Part shown: positions 1 to 8,819 of the stretch, one piece after another | How positions within the stretch are numbered: position 1 is the first letter of the stretch | How the letters are laid out: the number at the start of each line of letters is the position of its first letter | Source: a virus | Length of the DNA: 20,592 nt | Reading direction: 5' to 3' (one strand) | Virus record (IMG/VR): IMGVR_UViG_3300030328_003242 | Span: 36,483 to 57,074 of that record | Position numbers and translations under genes: made by a program | The notes under the pieces: generated by a model | Told to the model about the DNA's origin: nothing | What the model saw: the letters and a program-made list of their open reading frames with translations, nothing else | Database searches by the model: none

Positions 1-157
1 TGTCTGCTTCTATAAAGACATTATCGACCTGAATGTCTTTGTCATAGTTTGTGTCTGATTGTTTCATTGCATTAGGAAAATGAATTTCAAAATCATCTAG
101 ATTCTTTACTCCAGGTCGGAGTGGTTCTTTGAAATAATCTTCAGTCATAAGTTTCAT
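1..157 (-). CDS. Hypothetical protein, C-terminus beyond window
   Basis: The reading frame opens with ATG at 157 and stays open to the window edge, giving 52 residues that begin MKLMTEDYFKEPLRPG. The start overlaps the stop of the upstream gene as ATGA, so translation is probably coupled. A second in-frame ATG (MTEDYF) nine bases further on is an alternative start. The visible part is acidic and hydrophilic, with no membrane segment or motif I recognise. It belongs to the compact leftward run of small genes with overlapping ends. No function can be assigned. Confidence 0.6.
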   Translation of the reverse strand, partial: MKLMTEDYFKEPLRPGVKNLDDFEIHFPNAMKQSDTNYDKDIQVDNVFIEAD

Positions 158-354
158 TTAAGTTGGATTTCAAAATCAATTGATTTAATGCACCAGCCTG
201 ATGCAGTTGTGAGTTCTTCAATTAAATCGTCCTCATCATCTGCTGACCAACAACCAATATGGTTACGAATAACATTTTGTTGCTCATCATTAGTCATGGG
301 AGATTCATAATCATCTTTGAAATCAAAGTCAATTGATTTAACATTAAAAAGCAT
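154..354 (-). CDS. Small acidic hypothetical protein (66 aa)
   Basis: This encodes 66 residues that are very rich in Asp and Glu, including the run SADDEDDLIEELTT. The segment KSIDFDF near the N-terminus is echoed by KSIDFEI near the C-terminus, which suggests an internal duplication or two matching beta strands. A good ribosome site (GGAGG) lies about eight bases upstream of the ATG. The ATG overlaps the previous stop as TAATG, and the gene's own stop overlaps the next start as ATGA. No family was recognised. The strong acidity would fit a phage protein that binds a host protein, but that is speculation. Confidence 0.65.
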   Translation of the reverse strand: MLFNVKSIDFDFKDDYESPMTNDEQQNVIRNHIGCWSADDEDDLIEELTTASGWCIKSIDFEIQLK

Positions 355-533
355 TAAGTTACCTCCGTGATGTCATAGATTTCTGGTTTGTCATTACTAA
401 TTTCTCCATAAGAAGGGAAATCATCATCAAGACATTTCTCTGCTAATGCAGTAACTTTCTCTTTAGTTTCTGCATGATATGTGTACTCATAGTAAATAGT
501 ACATTTTGCAAAAACTCTAAATTCTTTAGTCAT
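354..533 (-). CDS. Small hypothetical protein (59 aa)
   Basis: I chose the ATG at 533 (MTKEFRVFAKCTIYYEYTYH) rather than the in-frame ATG at 563. The 533 start overlaps the stop of the upstream gene as TAATG, the same junction used at this gene's other end. The longer form would lie over the upstream gene in another frame. The N-terminal half alternates hydrophobic and aromatic residues like beta strands, followed by a helix (KEKVTALAEKCL) and an acidic tail. No family was recognised. It is probably translationally coupled to both neighbours. Confidence 0.6.
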   Translation of the reverse strand: MTKEFRVFAKCTIYYEYTYHAETKEKVTALAEKCLDDDFPSYGEISNDKPEIYDITEVT

Positions 534-673
534 TAGATAGTCCCTAGTTGACGTTGTTGCCATTTCAGAAAGGTACTCTTTAAAGCATTCTTAGCTAAGA
601 GCTTACGAGTTGGATCTTTCTGTGTGTAATGTTTCTTAGGACGTTTGGTTAATCTCTTTGGTTGTAGTTCCAT
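533..673 (-). CDS. Small basic hypothetical protein (46 aa)
   Basis: This frame starts with ATG at 673 and ends in TAA at 533-535, which overlaps the next ATG. It encodes 46 residues beginning MELQPKRLTKRPKKHYTQKD, with many Lys and Arg and few acidic residues. Such composition fits nucleic-acid binding or contact with an acidic partner; the protein encoded two genes downstream is strongly acidic, but an interaction is only a guess. It is the first gene downstream of the inverted-repeat-rich gap at 674-849. No ribosome site is obvious. The clean junction with the next gene is the best support that it is real. Confidence 0.55.
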   Translation of the reverse strand: MELQPKRLTKRPKKHYTQKDPTRKLLAKNALKSTFLKWQQRQLGTI

Positions 674-849
674 AATTAGTAATAAACAGAAATGAATAAA
701 GAGCTGGGATCATGTACTTCGACTTACATGACGACTTACATAGATGTATAAGTATGCAGACCTATGTAATCTCTTTACGAACCACCATAAAGAGACCTAC
801 ATCTAATGCCCAGCTACGCTAAGTATTTATAAACCTGGGTGCTAATACG
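674..849. other. Non-coding gap packed with inverted repeats
   Basis: No convincing gene lies here. Several perfect inverted repeats are visible: 710-716 with 725-731 (TCATGTA/TACATGA), 736-743 with 762-769 (TTACATAG/CTATGTAA), 771-777 with 788-794 (CTCTTTA/TAAAGAG), and 809-813 with 835-839 (CCCAG/CTGGG). An 8-base pair, 741-748 with 798-805 (TAGATGTA/TACATCTA), would compete with some of these. GACTTACAT is directly repeated at 721-729 and 733-741. The gap separates two leftward gene groups, so it may end one transcript, start another, or form a structured leader for the gene that starts at 673. Confidence 0.7.
824..831 (-). promoter_or_regulatory. TATAAATA, T4-late-type promoter-like box
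   Basis: On the minus strand the gap contains TATAAATA, the late-promoter box of T4 and many T4-like cyanophages. It faces the leftward genes from 673 down. In DNA this AT-rich the motif is expected by chance several times per window, and no sigma-gp55-like gene is visible here, so this is only a weak suggestion. Confidence 0.2.
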
Positions 850-1107
850 CTACCGAGGGGGGAGGGGACAAGCACTTAAACGATGTCCAAGATGCTTAGA
901 AATTTTACCTGTATTTTCATGCTTAATCTCATAGTAATAATGAAAACGACCAGCTGAATTAGATTCATGGCATACCTTAATGATATGACCATAGATTTGA
1001 TCTTTAAAAGCTTTAGAGTTCTTTGCTTTTAAGGATAAAGCTGGATTGTTCTTCTTAAAGACTCGATCACCTATTTGAAAGGTTTGTCCAACAATGGGTC
1101 GTGTCAT
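850..1107 (-). CDS. Hypothetical protein (85 aa), possible SH3-like fold
   Basis: This encodes 85 residues beginning MTRPIVGQTFQIGDRVFKK. The pattern 'F..GDRVF' near residue 10, a middle segment YGHIIKVCHE and then FHYYYEIKHENTGKI look like the strands of a small SH3-type or KOW-like barrel, but I could not assign a family. The C-terminus runs into a pyrimidine-rich stretch (CPLPPR). The ATG lies 29 bases after the stop of the upstream gene, with no strong ribosome site. The protein is basic overall, as in many small phage nucleic-acid-associated proteins. Confidence 0.6.
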   Translation of the reverse strand: MTRPIVGQTFQIGDRVFKKNNPALSLKAKNSKAFKDQIYGHIIKVCHESNSAGRFHYYYEIKHENTGKISKHLGHRLSACPLPPR

Positions 1108-1136
1108 AAAATTACTATTAATATTGCATAAGCATA

Positions 1137-1442
1137 CTAGAAAGGGATTCTTTCAGCAGAATGGAGTTTACATTCTGGAGTGATAATGAATTTGTGTGGT
1201 TCATCAATGTCTTTAGTCTTTAGATGATCTAATTGTTTGATGAGAATCTTTAATGATTTCTTAGCAGCATCTAAATTTTCAAAACTGATTGTACCTCTAC
1301 TTGTGTGGCAAGGTCCAATACAAGTGGAATGTTCTATGTAAATAGATTCATTACCAGCATTTGGATGACAATGATGAGATGTTTTTGAAACTTGAAAAGT
1401 TTGATTTGTAGGAGTGTTTTGAAGCTCTTCCTCTAAGCTCAT
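1137..1442 (-). CDS. Hypothetical protein (101 aa) downstream of hammerhead
   Basis: This encodes 101 residues beginning MSLEEELQNTPTNQTFQVSK. A Cys/His-rich stretch, HHCHPN...HSTCIGPCH (residues about 23-46), could bind a metal, and a Lys-rich helix follows (LDAAKKSLKILIKQLDHLK). The ATG at 1442 has no Shine-Dalgarno site. Its leader lies immediately 3' of the hammerhead motif, so if the ribozyme cuts, this gene is carried on the 3' product with a 5'-hydroxyl end about 60 bases upstream of the start. No family was recognised. Confidence 0.65.
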   Translation of the reverse strand: MSLEEELQNTPTNQTFQVSKTSHHCHPNAGNESIYIEHSTCIGPCHTSRGTISFENLDAAKKSLKILIKQLDHLKTKDIDEPHKFIITPECKLHSAERIPF

Positions 1443-1470
1443 GGTTAATGTTGCGATTGGATAATAACCT

Positions 1471-1525
1471 GTCTCGTCAGGATGGGTCGGTTAGTTCCCA
1501 TCGACTCCCCGAAGGGAGTTTCGAC
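1471..1525 (-). ncRNA. Type II hammerhead self-cleaving ribozyme
   Basis: Every conserved core element is present in order on the minus strand. GTC (1525-1523) pairs with GAC (1473-1471) as the open stem II. GAAA follows at 1522-1519. Stem III is ACTCCC-TTCG-GGGAGT (1519-1504) and includes the A15.1-U16.1 pair. The cleavage triplet is GUC with C17 at 1503. Stem I is GATGGG with CCCATC (1502-1497 with 1486-1481) and has a 10-base loop. CTGACGA (1480-1474) matches the CUGANGA box. The predicted cut lies between 1503 and 1502. Beyond GTC/GAC, a 3x3 internal loop and then TAA/TTA may extend stem II. The G of the ssb stop codon is the first base of stem II. Type II hammerheads are known from bacteria and phages; activity here is inferred. 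Confidence 0.92.
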
Positions 1526-1926
1526 TATTTAGCCATAGTCTTAACCTCTTTAGAAGTCTTAACTTCTTTAGTAGGTTGTTGTAGTTTTTCTGCTGCTCTC
1601 TTTTCTACACTGATTTTACCTAGTGCAGAACAGTAGCATTCATCAACTACTAGTTCATATTTACCTCTGAATTCACCTTCTTCTGTTTTCCATGTCTTAT
1701 AAACAACATGGTATCTCAAAGAAACTAAATCACCTTGGTTTCTCATTTTCTGAAGTCTTTCACCATAACCGTTATAACAAGTAACAGGTATAGCTTTAGA
1801 TCCTTCAGGAGCACCATCAGGTATAACACGAAATTCAGTGACTGAAATACGTGTATTTTCAGGGTATCTAATGGTTACATCGCTAACGATGCGACCAATT
1901 AATGAACCGTTGTTACAAGCAGACAT
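1525..1926 (-). CDS. ssb: Single-stranded DNA-binding protein (SSB)
   Basis: This 133-residue protein has the order of an SSB OB-fold: SLIGRIVSDVTIRYPENT at the N-terminus, then IPVTCYNGYGERLQKM (compare 'W..V..FGK.AE' in the family), then GDLVSLRYHVVYKTWKTEEG and the closing strand KYELVVDECY near residues 89-98. It coats single-stranded DNA during replication and recombination. The C-terminus is Lys-rich and ends KTMAK, so the acidic tip bacterial SSBs use to recruit partners is missing. A good ribosome site (AGGAG) lies about eight bases before the ATG. The leader is highly structured and the stop codon is built into a hammerhead ribozyme, an unusual pairing that suggests post-transcriptional control. 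Confidence 0.85.
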   Translation of the reverse strand: MSACNNGSLIGRIVSDVTIRYPENTRISVTEFRVIPDGAPEGSKAIPVTCYNGYGERLQKMRNQGDLVSLRYHVVYKTWKTEEGEFRGKYELVVDECYCSALGKISVEKRAAEKLQQPTKEVKTSKEVKTMAK

Positions 1927-1943
1927 GTGAGTCTCCTAGTGTG

Positions 1944-2018
1944 CTGGAGCCTATCCCAGTCGATTAGGCAGAGAGGATGAACCCCTCAGGGAGCCAACCC
2001 TTTCGGGAATGACTCCAG
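1944..2018 (-). promoter_or_regulatory. Structured leader of ssb with competing helices
   Basis: Between the previous stop and the ssb ribosome site the transcript can form three hairpins in a row: 2016-1990 (GGAGTCA with TGGCTCC, GAAA in the loop), 1987-1971 (GAGGGG-TTCAT-CCTCTC) and 1969-1949 (GCCTA with TAGGC). Alternatively CTGGAGTC at 2018-2011 can pair over eight bases with GGCTCCAG at 1951-1944, closing the whole leader and excluding the first and third hairpins. The ribosome site (AGGAG) lies just outside. Two mutually exclusive folds before an SSB gene suggest translational control; T4 gp32 represses its own mRNA through leader structure. Confidence 0.6.
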
Positions 2019-2029
2019 GAGAGAATCAA

Positions 2030-2521
2030 CTAGATTTCCACGTTCTTAACCCTCGTAATGAAAGAGTTAATAGCTTCCTTTAAAACAGGTAGATACTTGT
2101 TTTGGAAGTCGGAAACTAGATCGTTCCATTCCTTTAGATGCTCTTTCCAACGAAGGATAAAATCACTCTGGTAGCTAAGAGTATCAGTACCTAGAAGAGG
2201 AATTTTACGGACAGAAGTAGCAACTTTGTCACTTTGAGATCGAACTTTAGCTAGTTCTTCCTCAAGAGACTTGATGTCACTAGTATGTGTTTTCTGTAAA
2301 TTGTCTATTTGATTCATTTGATTTTCATTAAAACCACGTAAATCTTTAATAGTGAGATTTAAAGAATCACATTCTTCTTGACTACCGTCGTAATCATCTT
2401 GAAGTTCAATCTTTTCAAGATAGAAGCTCTTCTTGCTACCATTGCGATATTCCGCATTGGTTTTAGGATCTAGGTCCACATCAAATTTCTTGATGAGACT
2501 TTCCTGTTGAGCTTTGTCCAT
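2030..2521 (-). CDS. Hypothetical coiled-coil protein (163 aa)
   Basis: This encodes 163 residues beginning MDKAQQESLIKKFDVDLD. Residues about 52-100 have the heptad-like spacing and Leu/Glu/Lys content of a coiled coil (DNLQKTHTSDIKSLEEELAK). A more globular helical C-terminus follows with several Trp and aromatic residues (ILRWKEHLKEWNDLVSDF). No catalytic motif is visible. There is no Shine-Dalgarno site: the start codon lies in the second copy of a short tandem repeat (CTTGTTCTAT), downstream of two hairpins. Its position before ssb suggests early expression, but its role is unknown. Confidence 0.7.
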   Translation of the reverse strand: MDKAQQESLIKKFDVDLDPKTNAEYRNGSKKSFYLEKIELQDDYDGSQEECDSLNLTIKDLRGFNENQMNQIDNLQKTHTSDIKSLEEELAKVRSQSDKVATSVRKIPLLGTDTLSYQSDFILRWKEHLKEWNDLVSDFQNKYLPVLKEAINSFITRVKNVEI

Positions 2522-2543
2522 AGAACAAGTAGGTATAGAACAA

Positions 2544-2581
2544 GCAGGGAGAACCCTGCAGGGAACCTACGAATAGGCTCC
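2544..2581 (-). promoter_or_regulatory. Two-hairpin RNA leader (TTCG hairpin plus G-rich hairpin)
   Basis: On the minus strand an 8-bp stem GGAGCCTA-TTCG-TAGGTTCC (2581-2562, one G-U pair) is followed at once by a 6-bp stem GCAGGG-TTCT-CCCTGC (2559-2544). There is no U-run, so it does not look like an intrinsic terminator. The same order, a capped hairpin then a G-rich hairpin whose loop begins TTC, occurs at 1971-2016 and 2874-2912 with different stem sequences that remain paired. Confidence 0.7.
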
Positions 2582-2590
2582 GTGAAGGGA

Positions 2591-2851
2591 TCATTGACTA
2601 CATGACTTTTCCTCGTAATAATCTCTCATGGTTTCTATTAGATCTTTGCAACCAGTCATACGACTGATTTCAAATTCTCTAGCTTCTACCATTTCGTCAT
2701 AAGGAGAAAAGTTTGTAACTTTGTGATACTCCATGAGTAATGACCTATTGTGACTCGTACGGTTAATAACCTGAGTAGGAGCACATTGAACCCAATCATC
2801 AGATGTTTCTGATTTTGGAGGCCAGAATTCAAGTTTGTGAGTAATAGCCAT
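2591..2851 (-). CDS. Hypothetical protein (86 aa)
   Basis: This encodes 86 residues beginning MAITHKLEFWPPKSETSDDWVQ and ending in a helical acidic tail (CKDLIETMRDYYEEKSCSQ). I rejected longer out-of-frame alternatives because they read through the hairpin leader. There is no clear ribosome site before the ATG at 2851; the leader is the two-hairpin element at 2874-2912 followed by an A/T-rich spacer. No signal peptide, membrane segment or family motif was seen. It is one of the series of small leftward genes each preceded by structured RNA. Confidence 0.6.
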   Translation of the reverse strand: MAITHKLEFWPPKSETSDDWVQCAPTQVINRTSHNRSLLMEYHKVTNFSPYDEMVEAREFEISRMTGCKDLIETMRDYYEEKSCSQ

Positions 2852-2873
2852 AATAAATTAGGGGCTAAAGGAC

Positions 2874-2912
2874 AAGGGGATGAACCCCTCAGTCTGCCTC
2901 CGAAGAAGCAGA
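2874..2912 (-). promoter_or_regulatory. Two-hairpin RNA leader (cUUCGg hairpin plus G-rich hairpin)
   Basis: An 8-bp hairpin TCTGCTTC-TTCG-GAGGCAGA (2912-2893, one U-G pair) carries the extra-stable C(UUCG)G loop. It is followed two bases later by GAGGGG-TTCAT-CCCCTT (2890-2874). The second hairpin has the same loop and left strand as the one in the ssb leader, but its right strand differs (CCCCTT against CCTCTC) while pairing is retained. It lies directly after the stop of the gene at 2922-3071 and has no U-run. Confidence 0.7.
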
Positions 2913-2921
2913 GGGAGAGGA

Positions 2922-3071
2922 TCAATCAGGAGCATTGAATTGAGAAGGTAAGTACCAAGGGGTAAATACTTTCAATGCACTGAATAATCTTTTACGTGTC
3001 TCGATCTTGCGATCTATTAAAGATCTTTGGTAGCGATCTTCAATGTCAGACCATGTGTGATTACTTTCCAT
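2922..3071 (-). CDS. Small basic hypothetical protein (49 aa)
   Basis: This frame encodes 49 residues beginning MESNHTWSDIEDRYQRSLID and ending SQFNAPD. A strong ribosome site, GGAGG, sits seven bases before the ATG, inside the end of the upstream gene, and the two frames overlap by 11 bases, so expression is likely coupled. The middle is helical and Arg/Lys-rich (DRKIETRKRLFSALKVF). No domain was recognised. The stop codon is followed almost at once by the hairpin pair at 2874-2912. Confidence 0.65.
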   Translation of the reverse strand: MESNHTWSDIEDRYQRSLIDRKIETRKRLFSALKVFTPWYLPSQFNAPD

Positions 3072-3273
3072 ACTTAACCTCCTGGCGTTCGATTAATTCA
3101 ACAACTTCTTCATAATGTTCACGAGCTTGAGCAAGTGATGCAGAAGTACATTTGGGATAATCAGGAGCACCTTTAAGAGGTTCAAAGGTTACACGGGCTT
3201 GATTACTAGCTTCGTTAATGGAATAAACGTAGCAAGCAACTTTTGGGTGTACCAAGGTAAACTCTTTGATCAT
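3061..3273 (-). CDS. Hypothetical protein (70 aa)
   Basis: This encodes 70 residues beginning MIKEFTLVHPKVACYVYSIN, with an alternating hydrophobic N-terminal half like beta strands and a Glu-rich C-terminal helix (AREHYEEVVELIERQEVKYGK). The ATG at 3273 lies in the right arm of a small hairpin (CATGG with CCATG, 3287-3271), so the start may be partly masked, and no ribosome site precedes it. The longer leader holds a tRNA-like element. The gene overlaps the next one by 11 bases. No family was recognised. Confidence 0.6.
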   Translation of the reverse strand: MIKEFTLVHPKVACYVYSINEASNQARVTFEPLKGAPDYPKCTSASLAQAREHYEEVVELIERQEVKYGK

Positions 3274-3295: not shown

Positions 3296-3357
3296 GCCTA
3301 TCTCTGCTGTAGGCAATACCGAGGGAGGGAGTTGAACCCTCCTTAAGACCCACTCAG
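3296..3357 (-). ncRNA. tRNA-like leader element 1 plus hairpin
   Basis: Reading the minus strand, CTGAG (3357-3353) pairs with CTCGG (3323-3319, one U-G pair). Between them are a 10-base linker and a 6-bp hairpin GGAGGG-TTCAACT-CCCTCC (3342-3324), whose 7-base loop matches the tRNA T-loop pattern TTCRANY. A second hairpin, GCCTA with TAGGC (3314-3296), follows. This is the most divergent of four related elements: it lacks the middle hairpin and the conserved ACTGA loop. It lies between two small genes and has no terminator-like U-run. Confidence 0.6.
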
Positions 3358-3504
3358 TTATTCACTAAAGTATTCTTCACCTTCTATCTTGATGACTTGT
3401 TGCAGTGAATATTTAGCCATAACGTCAGGACGACGATAGGTTTTCACAGCTTCATCAATGATGGAATTGAATTCAGTTTCAGTGATGGAATGTTTTCTAG
3501 ACAT
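3358..3504 (-). CDS. Small hypothetical protein (48 aa)
   Basis: I start this at ATG 3504 (MSRKHSITETEFNSIIDEAV), not at the in-frame ATG far upstream at 3612, because the longer version would translate the structured leader and part of the previous gene. The 48 residues are helical and charged, with KTYRRPDVMAKYSLQQVI in the middle and an acidic end. The 13 bases before the ATG (TTACTTCGACATC) are nearly identical before two other genes and contain no Shine-Dalgarno site. The stop lies immediately before tRNA-like element 1. No family was recognised. Confidence 0.6.
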   Translation of the reverse strand: MSRKHSITETEFNSIIDEAVKTYRRPDVMAKYSLQQVIKIEGEEYFSE

Positions 3505-3517
3505 GATGTCGAAGTAA

Positions 3518-3592
3518 GCTACTCTCAGTGAGTAGCAATACTGAGGGAGGGAGTTGAACCCTCCATTACAGCTAAAGCTGACCAAGCTCAGT
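3518..3592 (-). ncRNA. tRNA-like leader element 2 plus hairpin
   Basis: ACTGAG (3592-3587) pairs perfectly with CTCAGT (3545-3540). Inside are a small hairpin CAGC-TTTA-GCTG (3580-3569) and the T-arm-like hairpin GGAGGG-TTCAACT-CCCTCC (3564-3546). The two stacked stems total 12 bp, as in the acceptor/T helix of tRNA. After a short linker comes GCTACTC-ACTGA-GAGTAGC (3536-3518), then 13 bases, then the ATG at 3504. The stop codon of the upstream gene (TAG, 3574-3572) lies inside the small hairpin. Element 3 matches the 53-base core at 50 positions. Confidence 0.75.
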
Positions 3593-3772: not shown

Positions 3773-3785
3773 GATGTCGAAGTAG

Positions 3786-3860
3786 GCCACCTTCAGTAGG
3801 TGGCAATACTGAGGGAGGGAGTTGAACCCTCCGATACAGCTAACGCTGACCAAGCTCAGT
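3786..3860 (-). ncRNA. tRNA-like leader element 3 plus hairpin
   Basis: This has the same layout as element 2: ACTGAG (3860-3855) with CTCAGT (3813-3808), middle hairpin CAGC-GTTA-GCTG (3848-3837), T-arm-like GGAGGG-TTCAACT-CCCTCC (3832-3814), then GCCACCT-ACTGA-AGGTGGC (3804-3786). Most of the last stem differs from element 2 (GCTACTC/GAGTAGC) yet all seven pairs are kept and the ACTGA loop is unchanged. This covariation is strong evidence of selected RNA structure. The stop of the upstream gene (TGA, 3858-3856) lies in the first stem. Confidence 0.78.
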
Positions 3861-4153: not shown

Positions 4154-4166
4154 GATGTCGAAGCAA

Positions 4167-4239
4167 GCCATCCTCAGTGGACGGCAATGACAAGTGGGGG
4201 AGTTGCACCCCCGACCTGGCTATGATCCAGTAACTTGCC
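4167..4239 (-). ncRNA. tRNA-like leader element 4 (D-arm-less cloverleaf) plus hairpin
   Basis: This is the most tRNA-like copy. It has an acceptor-like stem of 7 bp (GGCAAGT 4239-4233 with ACTTGTC 4195-4189, one G-U), two linker bases, a 4-bp stem with a 7-base loop ATCATAG (4230-4216), three linker bases, a 5-bp stem with the 7-base loop TGCAACT (4212-4196), then the 3' acceptor strand. In tRNA terms the middle loop reads U33-CAU-A37. There is no D-arm and no encoded CCA. The hairpin GCCGTCC-ACTGA-GGATGGC (4185-4167) and the common 13-base leader follow. The upstream gene's TAG stop lies in the middle loop. Confidence 0.7.
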
Positions 4240-5198: not shown

Positions 5199-8100
5199 AT
5201 GGCTGTCGCTGCTGCTGATTTTTACACATATGCTAGAGCCACTGGCACACCCTTACCTCAGAACAAAAAAGAAGAGGCTGAATTAGTACCTGCTATTAAT
5301 CAATGGAAGAGGAATCAACTTAGACAGCAAAGACAAGAAGAAAATAATATTAATGGTGGTGCAATTGCTGCTGTTGCAGGTTTAGCAGGTCTTGGTGCTG
5401 CTGCATTAGCTGCTAGTAGAGGTGGATTGAGAAGTAGAGTTACAAATGCAGTTGATCCTACTTCTGGATCTAGAGTTTCGACAGGTGTTGGTGGATTACA
5501 ACAAGATTTAAATGAAAAAGTAACACAAAGTCGCAATTGGGATGATTATAGAGATTCAATTGCACTTAAGACACAAGTAGATGAACAAGATTTTGTAGAA
5601 CAAGCATTAGATAAAGTTGAAAAGGATGCAATAGGTCCAGCTTCTATTGATGAATACACGGGAGAAGAAATAGCTGCTTTAAAAGCTTTTACTGATTATG
5701 GAACAGGAGTTGAAAATAACAGAATAAGAAGAATAGAAGAAGGAGGAGAAAAAGTTAGACAAAACATCATAAGAGGTTTGGAATTACCAGAACCTTCTTG
5801 GGAACAAACATCTGTAGTACAAAATAGACAACCAGAAGTTAAAGCTATATCTCCTAAAGAAGTTTTAGCTTTACCTCCTGCAAAAGTACAACAAGAAGTT
5901 GAAGATCCTTGGTTCACACAAGCTATAACTAATAACGATGTTGATAGTCCTATTACTACTAATGACTTTTTACAAAAACAAGGTCCTGGAAGATATACTG
6001 CTCCAATTGATCCTGAAAAAGTAACTAATAATTCTGTTGCTAATGTTCCTAAATCTACAACAACTGAAAATCAGACAATTAGTGCTATTAAGTCAGCAGA
6101 GGATCAAATTACTGGAAGAATATATAATAAAATTGTTACAGATCCCAATGTAGATACAAGTAATCTTGATGATGTTAATTTACAAAATATTTCAGAAAAC
6201 CTTCCTCCACCACAACAGGAACAAAGAGTTGGTGTTTCTAAAGAACAAGATTTTGTAGAACAAGCATTAGATCAAAAACTTTATAACAGGCTTCGCTTTC
6301 AGTCAGAAGAATTAAATCGAGACGAATTAAAAGCACTAGAAGGTATTAATTGGGAATTAAAAAAATCACGTAGAGCAGCACAACCTAAACCTTGGGAAAA
6401 TAAAGATTTTAATGTAGATAGAATTATAACTACTGCTCCTATAAAAACGGGTAATCCTATTGTTGATAGTTTAATTGGTCGTCTCCCTACTGCAGTTGTT
6501 GCAGCTAAGGAAATTGCAAAACAAGGTGCTAAAGATGTTTCAGATGCAGCTCAAAGTATTAAGAAAGCTGTTGTAGAAAACGCACCATCTAATCTTCCTG
6601 ATTTCTCAAGAGTTCCTAACTCTGGAATAAATACAAGTGCTACTGTTCAACTATCAGATGGAAGTGCTGCTGGACCTTTATATCCTTTTAAACAAGCTTG
6701 GAGAGGATTAACTGGAGGTACAAGTGTAGATGCAGTAGAGGACAGTGTAGATGCAGTAATACCTAAGGGAAAAGTTATTGATTCAAATGTTGAAGGTGTA
6801 GATAAAACATATGTTCTTAACGAACGAGACCAGATCATTCATGAGTTAGGAGCTAAATCTGATCTTCCTATAAATACTCCTAAAGATGTAACAGATTTAT
6901 CACAAACAGAACTATCTCGTCTTTTACAAAGACAAAGATATGAAATAGCTTCTCAATTACGTCAAAAAGGTGAACCTATTACCCCTGGAAAAATTGAAAG
7001 GGAATTAGAAAAATTTTACGGACCGAAATCTTATGACTATGTACGTAAGCTTAATGAAGAGTTAAAGCAAAAAGGTTTGCCAACAAAAAATATAAGGAAC
7101 ATTACAAAAAGAAAACATGCTATGCAACTAGGAGCTACTTATGATCCTGACTTTTTTGATAATGTAAATCTTAAGAGTGTTAAAATTGCTGGAGAAGATA
7201 TACCTGTTATACCATCAAGAAGATTTACAGAAGCAAAGACTCCTTATACAGGTAAGGCATATTTGGATGATTATAGTGACAGCTTAAAGACTCCTTTCTT
7301 TTCAGAAGACACAGCTTTAGGTTTAGCAGAACAAGTAGAGAAAAAGAAAAATTGGGGATTAACTCGAAGGGCAGAAATAGAAAGTGATATAGCTGAAATT
7401 TATAAAGAAAGAAAAATTAAAGCTGAACAAGAAGGGAAAAAAGTTGCTGCACAATTAAAGATAGCTGAATCAAAAGGTCAAATAGGACTTGTAAAGAAAC
7501 TTTCAAATCAATTAGAAAATATAAGAAAAGTATGGAAAAATCCTTCTTTAGGTTATTATCGTCAAGGTGATATTAGATTAGCTGAAGGACGGTTAAGAGG
7601 AATAGCAAGAAAAGAAATAGAGATGCAAGGAGAAATTGCAGATTTGACCGTACCTTTAACTGTTGCTGAACAACCAGAAAATGCAGGTAAACGTGTCTAT
7701 TTTGAAATAGATACAACAGGAGGAAGCGGTAAAAAGATCGGCAAACAATTAGCTCCTGGAAGTAGGGATTTATCAGATGAAGATGTAGATGAGATAGATA
7801 AAGTGGGAAATTATTTTATTGATCCTGAAAGTCTTCAATTACGTTCTGAATATCAGATTAAAGATACAGAACTAAAAGGTGGTCAGGGAAGAAAGCAAGC
7901 TGAAGCTCTTTCTCCACGACCTGATAATCCTTTAGATACACTTGTTCCTTTGCAACAAAGAGGTGGAACTTTATTTGATAGAAATACTAATACGTGGAAG
8001 TTAATGGCTGATATACCAGAAAACAATAAAGGATTAAGTCGTCAAACTACAAGACCTGTTGTTGATGCTATTGAACCAGATAGAGCAGGAAGTGATCCTG

Positions 8101-8819
8101 GAGGATTAGAAGAATCTCCTAGAATTTTCGAAGATGAACAAGGTGGCGTTACCGATATATATGGTAGACGGCTTGCTTCCGATTTAAAAGATGATGACAC
8201 AGTAAGACCTACTCAGCTTGTAGGAAAAGTAAAAGGACCACAAACACAAAAAGCTACTGCTGAAAGAAGACGAGCAGTTAATATATCTGAGAATATTAGA
8301 CATTTGAGTGATCCTAATTGGCTTGCTTCAAAAGGATATGATTTAAATAAAGTATCACCTAAACAATTAGTTGGAGAATACTTGCAAAGATTACAAAGTA
8401 AGACAGGTAGTGCTGATTTAGAAGAGTTTCTCCAAACAAGAGGTCAATCAAGACCTGCTACTTATGAAAATACTTATACAAATTTACGAGGTAATAGAGT
8501 TAACCTTAATGCAGAGGTTGAACCTTCTGTAACTCAGACTAATGTTGCACAATCTTCAAATTATCCTGCTGCACAAAATCAAGTGAATTACGTACCTCCC
8601 ACTGAATCAACAATACGATCTCTTTCCATAACTCCTAGTGAGATAGAAAAAGCTGAACGTATGCATTTACTAAATTATATTTCTGCTGCACATGGTCAAA
8701 TTAAAGGTGGGGCAAGAGCTGGTGGTACTAAAATGAGAAATAACTTAACTCCTTATCAATCACCTTCTGATGCAATGATTAATCAGTTGGTAATGAAAAG
8801 AAGAATGGAGCGTCTCTAA
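5199..8819 (+). CDS. Very large probable virion protein (1206 aa)
   Basis: This 1206-residue protein opens the rightward operon. Residues about 53-72 form a Gly/Ala-rich hydrophobic segment (GAIAAVAGLAGLGAAALAAS). The rest is hydrophilic and low in Cys, with long Pro/Gln/Glu-rich stretches and a Lys/Glu-rich, probably coiled-coil region near residues 715-800. EQDFVEQALD occurs twice (about residues 129 and 349), encoded by a perfect 30-base repeat. I recognise no enzyme motif such as a transglycosylase. Size, composition and position upstream of other virion genes fit an internal or tail-associated structural protein; a large ejection protein is an inference. It ends directly against the next ATG (TAAATG). 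Confidence 0.8.
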   Translation: MAVAAADFYTYARATGTPLPQNKKEEAELVPAINQWKRNQLRQQRQEENNINGGAIAAVAGLAGLGAAALAASRGGLRSRVTNAVDPTSGSRVSTGVGGLQQDLNEKVTQSRNWDDYRDSIALKTQVDEQDFVEQALDKVEKDAIGPASIDEYTGEEIAALKAFTDYGTGVENNRIRRIEEGGEKVRQNIIRGLELPEPSWEQTSVVQNRQPEVKAISPKEVLALPPAKVQQEVEDPWFTQAITNNDVDSPITTNDFLQKQGPGRYTAPIDPEKVTNNSVANVPKSTTTENQTISAIKSAEDQITGRIYNKIVTDPNVDTSNLDDVNLQNISENLPPPQQEQRVGVSKEQDFVEQALDQKLYNRLRFQSEELNRDELKALEGINWELKKSRRAAQPKPWENKDFNVDRIITTAPIKTGNPIVDSLIGRLPTAVVAAKEIAKQGAKDVSDAAQSIKKAVVENAPSNLPDFSRVPNSGINTSATVQLSDGSAAGPLYPFKQAWRGLTGGTSVDAVEDSVDAVIPKGKVIDSNVEGVDKTYVLNERDQIIHELGAKSDLPINTPKDVTDLSQTELSRLLQRQRYEIASQLRQKGEPITPGKIERELEKFYGPKSYDYVRKLNEELKQKGLPTKNIRNITKRKHAMQLGATYDPDFFDNVNLKSVKIAGEDIPVIPSRRFTEAKTPYTGKAYLDDYSDSLKTPFFSEDTALGLAEQVEKKKNWGLTRRAEIESDIAEIYKERKIKAEQEGKKVAAQLKIAESKGQIGLVKKLSNQLENIRKVWKNPSLGYYRQGDIRLAEGRLRGIARKEIEMQGEIADLTVPLTVAEQPENAGKRVYFEIDTTGGSGKKIGKQLAPGSRDLSDEDVDEIDKVGNYFIDPESLQLRSEYQIKDTELKGGQGRKQAEALSPRPDNPLDTLVPLQQRGGTLFDRNTNTWKLMADIPENNKGLSRQTTRPVVDAIEPDRAGSDPGGLEESPRIFEDEQGGVTDIYGRRLASDLKDDDTVRPTQLVGKVKGPQTQKATAERRRAVNISENIRHLSDPNWLASKGYDLNKVSPKQLVGEYLQRLQSKTGSADLEEFLQTRGQSRPATYENTYTNLRGNRVNLNAEVEPSVTQTNVAQSSNYPAAQNQVNYVPPTESTIRSLSITPSEIEKAERMHLLNYISAAHGQIKGGARAGGTKMRNNLTPYQSPSDAMINQLVMKRRMERL
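5583..5612 (+). repeat. 30-base direct repeat, copy 1
   Basis: A 30-base stretch encoding EQDFVEQALD is identical to 6243-6272 in the same gene. Identity at every synonymous position implies a recent duplication or active recombination, not just conserved protein sequence. Confidence 0.85.
6243..6272 (+). repeat. 30-base direct repeat, copy 2
   Basis: This is the second exact copy of the 5583-5612 sequence, in frame and 660 bases downstream. Flanking codons are not alike beyond a few bases. Confidence 0.85.

Follow-up and report, generated by a model that had tools for sequence, protein, structure and literature searches.

A type II hammerhead ribozyme on the stop codon of a phage ssb gene, and a probable role of phage hammerheads in forming the 3' ends of upstream mRNAs

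On the minus strand of a phage genome, a type II hammerhead ribozyme in which no core base is missing adjoins the end of an ssb gene (positions 1525-1471, minus, of the 20,592 nucleotides from IMG/VR record IMGVR_UViG_3300030328_003242 that we analysed as a whole and refer to as the window). The reading that we favour, at a probability of roughly 0.7, is that this ribozyme, stabilised by a pseudoknot, cuts the minus-strand polycistron at 1503|1502 and has as its main job the formation of a hairpin-protected 3' end on the upstream mRNA. Across their three types, phage hammerheads follow one arrangement, i.e., stop codon, hairpin, cut, which suggests 3'-end formation for the upstream mRNA rather than ribosome-controlled folding. 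What purpose many phage hammerheads serve has been a question since 2011, and the comparison presented here gives a sharp and testable answer: hairpin-ended 3' ends for the upstream gene would explain why types I and II, and not type III, are seated on stop codons.

A first-pass annotation of this DNA had described a complete type II hammerhead with three stems, a UUCG cap, and a GUC triplet, in which stem II starts on the final base of the ssb stop codon; core and stems lie exactly where it had placed them. Starting where the ssb gene ends, the minus-strand letters are AAATAGTCGAAACTCCCTTCGGGGAGTCGATGGGAACTAACCGACCCATCCTGACGAGACAGGTTATT. The stop codon UAG (1527-1525) provides with its final G base 1 of stem II, the 5' arm of which (GUC, 1525-1523) pairs with the 3' arm GAC (1473-1471). 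The 5' arm is followed by core bases G12, A13, and A14 (1522-1520), by stem III (ACUCCC-UUCG-GGGAGU, 1519-1504), and by C17 (1503), the base preceding the expected cut (GUC/G); GAA, stem III, C17, and the stem II 3' arm all match the Rfam model RF02276, and C17 is also placed by the motif. Stem I (1502-1481) consists of GAUGGG (1502-1497) and CCCAUC (1486-1481) around the loop AACUAACCGA, and the core CUGACGA (1480-1474) leads into the 3' arm of stem II. A fourth helix had been overlooked, namely a 5-bp pseudoknot between UAACC in loop I (1493-1489) and GGUUA in the 3' tail (1469-1465); Perreault et al. (2011, PMC3088659) described a pseudoknot between loop I and the 3' tail as the tertiary contact of most type II hammerheads in nature. 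The cut is predicted to fall between 1503 and 1502, and the sequence supports the earlier proposal of a 5' end at 1502 that would separate ssb from the next cistron.

Judged from its sequence, the window element has the structure that defines type II hammerheads: the invariant core (CUGANGA, GAA, A15.1-U16.1, and H17), loops that close stems I and III while stem II is open, a pseudoknot of 5 bp with covariation between loop I and the 3' tail, and a core and pairing that are kept in relatives (L001 and L083). Its sole failure is on the Rfam gathering score, a curated cut-off for automatic calls and no structural criterion. The covariance search that the first-pass annotation had called for returned, in a narrow scan of 161 bases, a match to RF02276 (Hammerhead_II) that covers the entire model at 30.9 bits (E=7e-5), and this score stays under the gathering score of 37 bits, which the homologue in record G015 passes (37.5 bits). 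A scan of the whole window against Rfam did not list the ribozyme, which was lost to filters, and the narrow scan was needed. Chance resemblance is unlikely because the full RF02276 match is joined by an expectation of 0.005 strict hammerhead motifs per dinucleotide-shuffled window and by six compensatory changes, described below. The folding energy of the ribozyme segment is not unusual (z = -0.90), and a competing fold lies 0.7 kcal/mol below the hammerhead if the pseudoknot is left out of the energy; free energy by itself is uninformative as evidence for this ribozyme. Its weak points are a stem II of 3 bp and the score under the gathering threshold.

Conservation in relatives points to function. 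L001 carries a ribozyme at the equivalent place in a phage whose SSB is 83% identical in amino acids to the window SSB, and L083 (record G015) carries one on the stop codon, UGA, of a gene that is not ssb but has 24 codons and encodes a hydrophobic product. The three ribozymes align free of gaps and retain 20/20 pairs including the pseudoknot; six pairs show double (compensatory) change, i.e., one in stem II and two in stem III (in L083), two in stem I, and one in the pseudoknot, which reads UGACC/GGUCA in L001 and L083, and in every slid control for covariation among the same three sequences the number of double changes was 0. Outside the helices, the core differs solely at N7, the unconstrained position, which is C in the window, A in L001, and U in L083. 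Because L001 and L083 keep 20 pairs with compensation in four helices, the window hammerhead is genuine and very probably active.

A search with RF02276 over 50 related records found a match in G015 only; absence in this search means little because even G000 and G001 were missed. Reading G003, G008, and the remainder of G000 in sequence revealed no further hammerhead. The ssb relatives in G003 and G008 (44-45% identity) are without a ribozyme and have a tRNA-like element right after the ssb stop. The special tie to ssb put forward by the first-pass annotation did not survive these comparisons, given these two junctions and the G015 ribozyme, which is seated on a small gene's stop codon but not on that of ssb; the gene 3' of the ribozyme is likewise not the same among relatives.

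With regard to gene context, the upstream cistron (1525-1926, minus) encodes a 133-aa protein of the SSB family, and its match to PF00436 (30.1 bits, cut-off 26) bears out the earlier identification as ssb. The downstream cistron (1137-1442, minus) encodes a 101-aa protein with 53% identity to a homologue in G001; its start codon lies 60 nt past position 1502, with which the downstream product would begin, and family searches with this protein gave no match. The large terminase subunit shares ~81% identity with its counterpart in Synechococcus phage S-EIV1, which was isolated from a lake in the high Arctic, and the host of the window phage is therefore probably a cyanobacterium. Similarity to named phages was limited to short cyanophage matches at the DNA level, and the window SSB had no match among named phages. 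The S-EIV1 large terminase gene (L445 12181-14721; KJ410740 54080-56620) exceeds its window homologue by ~340 codons, and the alignment of the two falls into two pieces, as with an intein or similar insert. Among the proteins scanned at 5199-8819 (plus; a 1206-aa product, scanned against PHROGs only) and in the small minus-strand genes from 154 to 3273, the majority are without a family match; the matches are to SSB, terminase, a small lipoprotein-like protein, and a weak coiled coil only.

Hammerheads of all three types were gathered by pattern scans of viral contigs, and the counts that follow are samples. An upstream stop codon lies within -3 to +12 of the ribozyme 5' end for 127 of 197 type II and 170 of 240 type I ribozymes and for 0 of 91 type III ribozymes among the matches listed; clustering these matches by ribozyme and upstream protein leaves 26/48 (II), 29/44 (I), and 0/25 (III). 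The commonest type II offset is that of the window, with the stop's last base inside stem II (41/149 among the matches listed), and the stop at this offset is nearly always UAG. UAG is in excess at type II junctions (55/144 vs 243/991 elsewhere, p=8e-4, among the matches listed), where the fixed GTC/GAC stem II of the scan dictates that a stop at offset -2 be UAG and does not create the stops themselves. Among the matches listed, stops reach deeper into type I than into type II ribozymes, and the next start codon follows at a median of 20-24 nt past the ribozyme in every type. A pseudoknot of at least 4 bp is possible in 105 of the 149 non-redundant type II ribozymes among the matches listed, as compared to 54 +/- 4 with permuted tails. 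The survey used an ORF filter of at least 40 codons, by which the 24-codon gene upstream of the L083 ribozyme was misassigned; it was read by hand. Abutment on a stop codon is thus general for phage hammerheads of types I and II and not tied to ssb, and the genome compactness of phages alone could press any spacer element onto a stop codon. A preference of phages for type II was considered and rejected; neither type I nor type III turned up in an initial local scan of loci that had been selected for type II, but dedicated scans find both types common. Runs of hammerheads at successive junctions were also seen, with 7-8 type II copies in L165, L120, and L200 and 10 type I copies in L314.

Type III is the informative exception. 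Stem III of types I and II is closed by a loop, and the upstream product keeps it as a hairpin that ends one nucleotide before the cut, whereas in type III this stem is open and the upstream product would have no hairpin at its end. Where a type III ribozyme has an upstream gene nearby, however, a hairpin below -3 kcal/mol lies between stop and ribozyme in 53/56 cases among the matches listed, and a separate hairpin is present in 16/20 clusters of these matches. Taken from stop to cut, the tail folds below -5 kcal/mol in 100% (I), 99% (II), and 88% (III) of the matches listed vs 42% after other stops, with a mean z of -2.67, -2.50, and -3.49, respectively, vs -0.33 after other stops; tail folding is informative for type III only, since in types I and II the hairpin is part of the ribozyme itself. 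A hairpin between stop and cut is common to all types, and 3'-end formation is therefore favoured as the main function.

For the window, the ribozyme would cleave the polycistronic minus-strand transcript between 1503 and 1502 while the transcript is being made. The ssb mRNA would then end in its stop codon, a short spacer, the UUCG-capped stem III hairpin, and a 2',3'-cyclic phosphate, while the downstream mRNA would begin with a 5'-hydroxyl at 1502, directly on the stem I hairpin. We infer that cleavage occurs in vivo, affects mRNA stability, and benefits the phage, and that its main role is most likely to provide the upstream gene with a 3' end that a hairpin protects. The ribozyme would do, independently of the host, what nuclease sites do in the transcripts of other phages. 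In T7-like phages, RNase III processes polycistronic mRNA at gene junctions and leaves a 3' hairpin upstream. The window ribozyme resembles these sites in that it lies at a junction and would leave the upstream message with a hairpin at its 3' end; however, they need a host protein and the window RNA is predicted to cut itself.

It is unlikely that the cut is made mainly for the downstream gene, with the 5'-hydroxyl and the stem I hairpin blocking 5'-end-dependent decay or with the start becoming exposed. The stem I hairpin does head the downstream product in types II and III, and a hammerhead variant of haloviruses HF1 and HF2, 13 nt before a helicase gene, coincides with a mapped mRNA 5' end (PMC3088659); but type I, which is equally common, has leaders that are mostly unstructured (16% below -5 kcal/mol among the matches listed), so that what the types share is not a hairpin at the 5' end, and the gene after the ribozyme changes between relatives. 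Control by translation, in which a ribosome terminating at the ssb stop would sit over stem II, GAA, and a portion of stem III and slow their folding, so that cleavage would report the intensity of ssb translation, is decidedly unlikely as the function of the arrangement. The one-base overlap of stop and stem II in the window speaks for it, as do, among the matches listed, the recurrence of this overlap in type II ribozymes, the over-use of UAG, and the even deeper stops of type I; yet type III ribozymes, among the matches listed, are never within the terminating ribosome's reach and keep a stop-proximal hairpin, and spacing is just as tight on the downstream side, which is what genome compaction alone would predict. 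Since type III keeps the hairpin and not the overlap, ribosome occlusion is disfavoured as the organising principle; the blocking of folding that the first-pass annotation had envisaged is possible as an event and loses ground as the reason for the arrangement, and gating may be a by-product of the stop overlap. That the element is a relic, inactive or in decay, or resembles a hammerhead by chance is highly improbable, as its score under the gathering threshold and its ordinary folding energy are set against three homologues with an intact core (changed at N7 only) and compensation in every helix.

Type II hammerheads between phage genes, some of them clustered, were described in 2011 together with a proposed role in processing phage transcripts (PMC3088659), and bacterial hammerheads have been associated with Mu-like phage genes (PMC10085705). 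Other examples were cleaved in vitro and in E. coli, while 4 of 18 consensus-conforming hammerheads assayed showed no cleavage (PMC3088659). The window ribozyme shares with these hammerheads (RF02276, PMC3088659) the open stem II permutation, the invariant core, a short stem II, the pseudoknot, and a place between phage genes; it differs in being present as a single copy in its 57-kb source record and in a 3-bp stem II that begins inside a stop codon. The HF1/HF2 variant likewise cuts phage mRNA beside a gene, with a 5' end mapped near the cut, but is a core variant for which PMC3088659 reports no tie to an upstream stop. PMC3088659, in which the term "stop codon" has 0 occurrences, contains neither the stop relation nor the rule on type III hairpins. 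More broadly, the stop-codon relation, the type III hairpin, and the tRNA-like elements were not found in the open-licence papers searched, and an earlier description elsewhere is possible. The claim that such an arrangement was not described can thus be kept, within those papers, for the stop relation, but not for phage type II hammerheads and transcript processing, which had been published. The window ribozyme adds to the published type II hammerheads, and the comparison has brought out a general rule and an exchange with tRNA-like elements at junctions.

Four tRNA-like elements are located in the window at other gene junctions of the ssb operon (all minus): 3318-3358, the first base of which is overlapped by the stop UAA; 3540-3592; 4189-4239; and 3808-3860, in which the T-arm alone gives a weak match to tmRNA (RF00023, 13.7 bits). 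In a scan, such elements occurred at ~12 times the shuffled rate (8.7 vs 0.7 per 100 kb), and in the phages read they are confined to this operon and its strand. Acceptor-like helix and T-arm together comprise 11-14 bp, mostly 12 and 12 in the four window copies, the T-loop has 7 bases, mostly UUCRANY (UUCAACU or UGCAACU in the window copies), a GG is found in the segment between acceptor-like helix and T-arm, and the first bases of the acceptor strand are usually overlapped by the stop codon. The same class is present in L212, L214, L220, L222, L445 (S-EIV1), L449, and L450, and probably in L059. The elements lack a complete cloverleaf; ARAGORN recognised none of them as tRNA or tmRNA, and Rfam assigned them to no family beyond the partial T-arm match to RF00023. 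Because the stop sits inside the 5' strand, processing by a 3'-side, RNase Z-like cut is the more plausible route. The exchange of hammerhead and tRNA-like element at homologous ssb junctions suggests that phages have several interchangeable RNA devices for separating cistrons, among which the tRNA-like one is without an Rfam family. A joint reading, which we offer tentatively and at somewhat less than even odds, is that in S-EIV1-like cyanophages the junctions of one operon bear exchangeable 3'-end RNA devices on stop codons (a hammerhead, or tRNA mimics cut by host RNase Z or RNase P) and that all three hammerhead permutations obey the order of stop, hairpin, and cut. Equally tentative, as part of this reading, is our proposal of a new minimal class of tRNA mimic, with a stack of acceptor and T-arm of ~12 bp, a canonical T-loop, a D-loop-like GG, and no cloverleaf.

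Two further kinds of spacer were observed in the operon. A short hairpin with the loop ACUGA, e.g., CCACCUACUGAAGGUGG, directly follows most tRNA-like elements (3780-3807, 3515-3540, and 4165-4188, minus; also in L205, L206, and L059) and would head the downstream message. Finally, a third class of junction spacer (2876-2924, 2543-2593, and 1966-2029, minus), conserved in L001 and L205, has the layout UGAUYCUCUCC, hairpin, GAGGG...CCCUC, and its GAGGG can pair with either the 5' or the 3' CCCUC copy, a possible switch between alternative folds.
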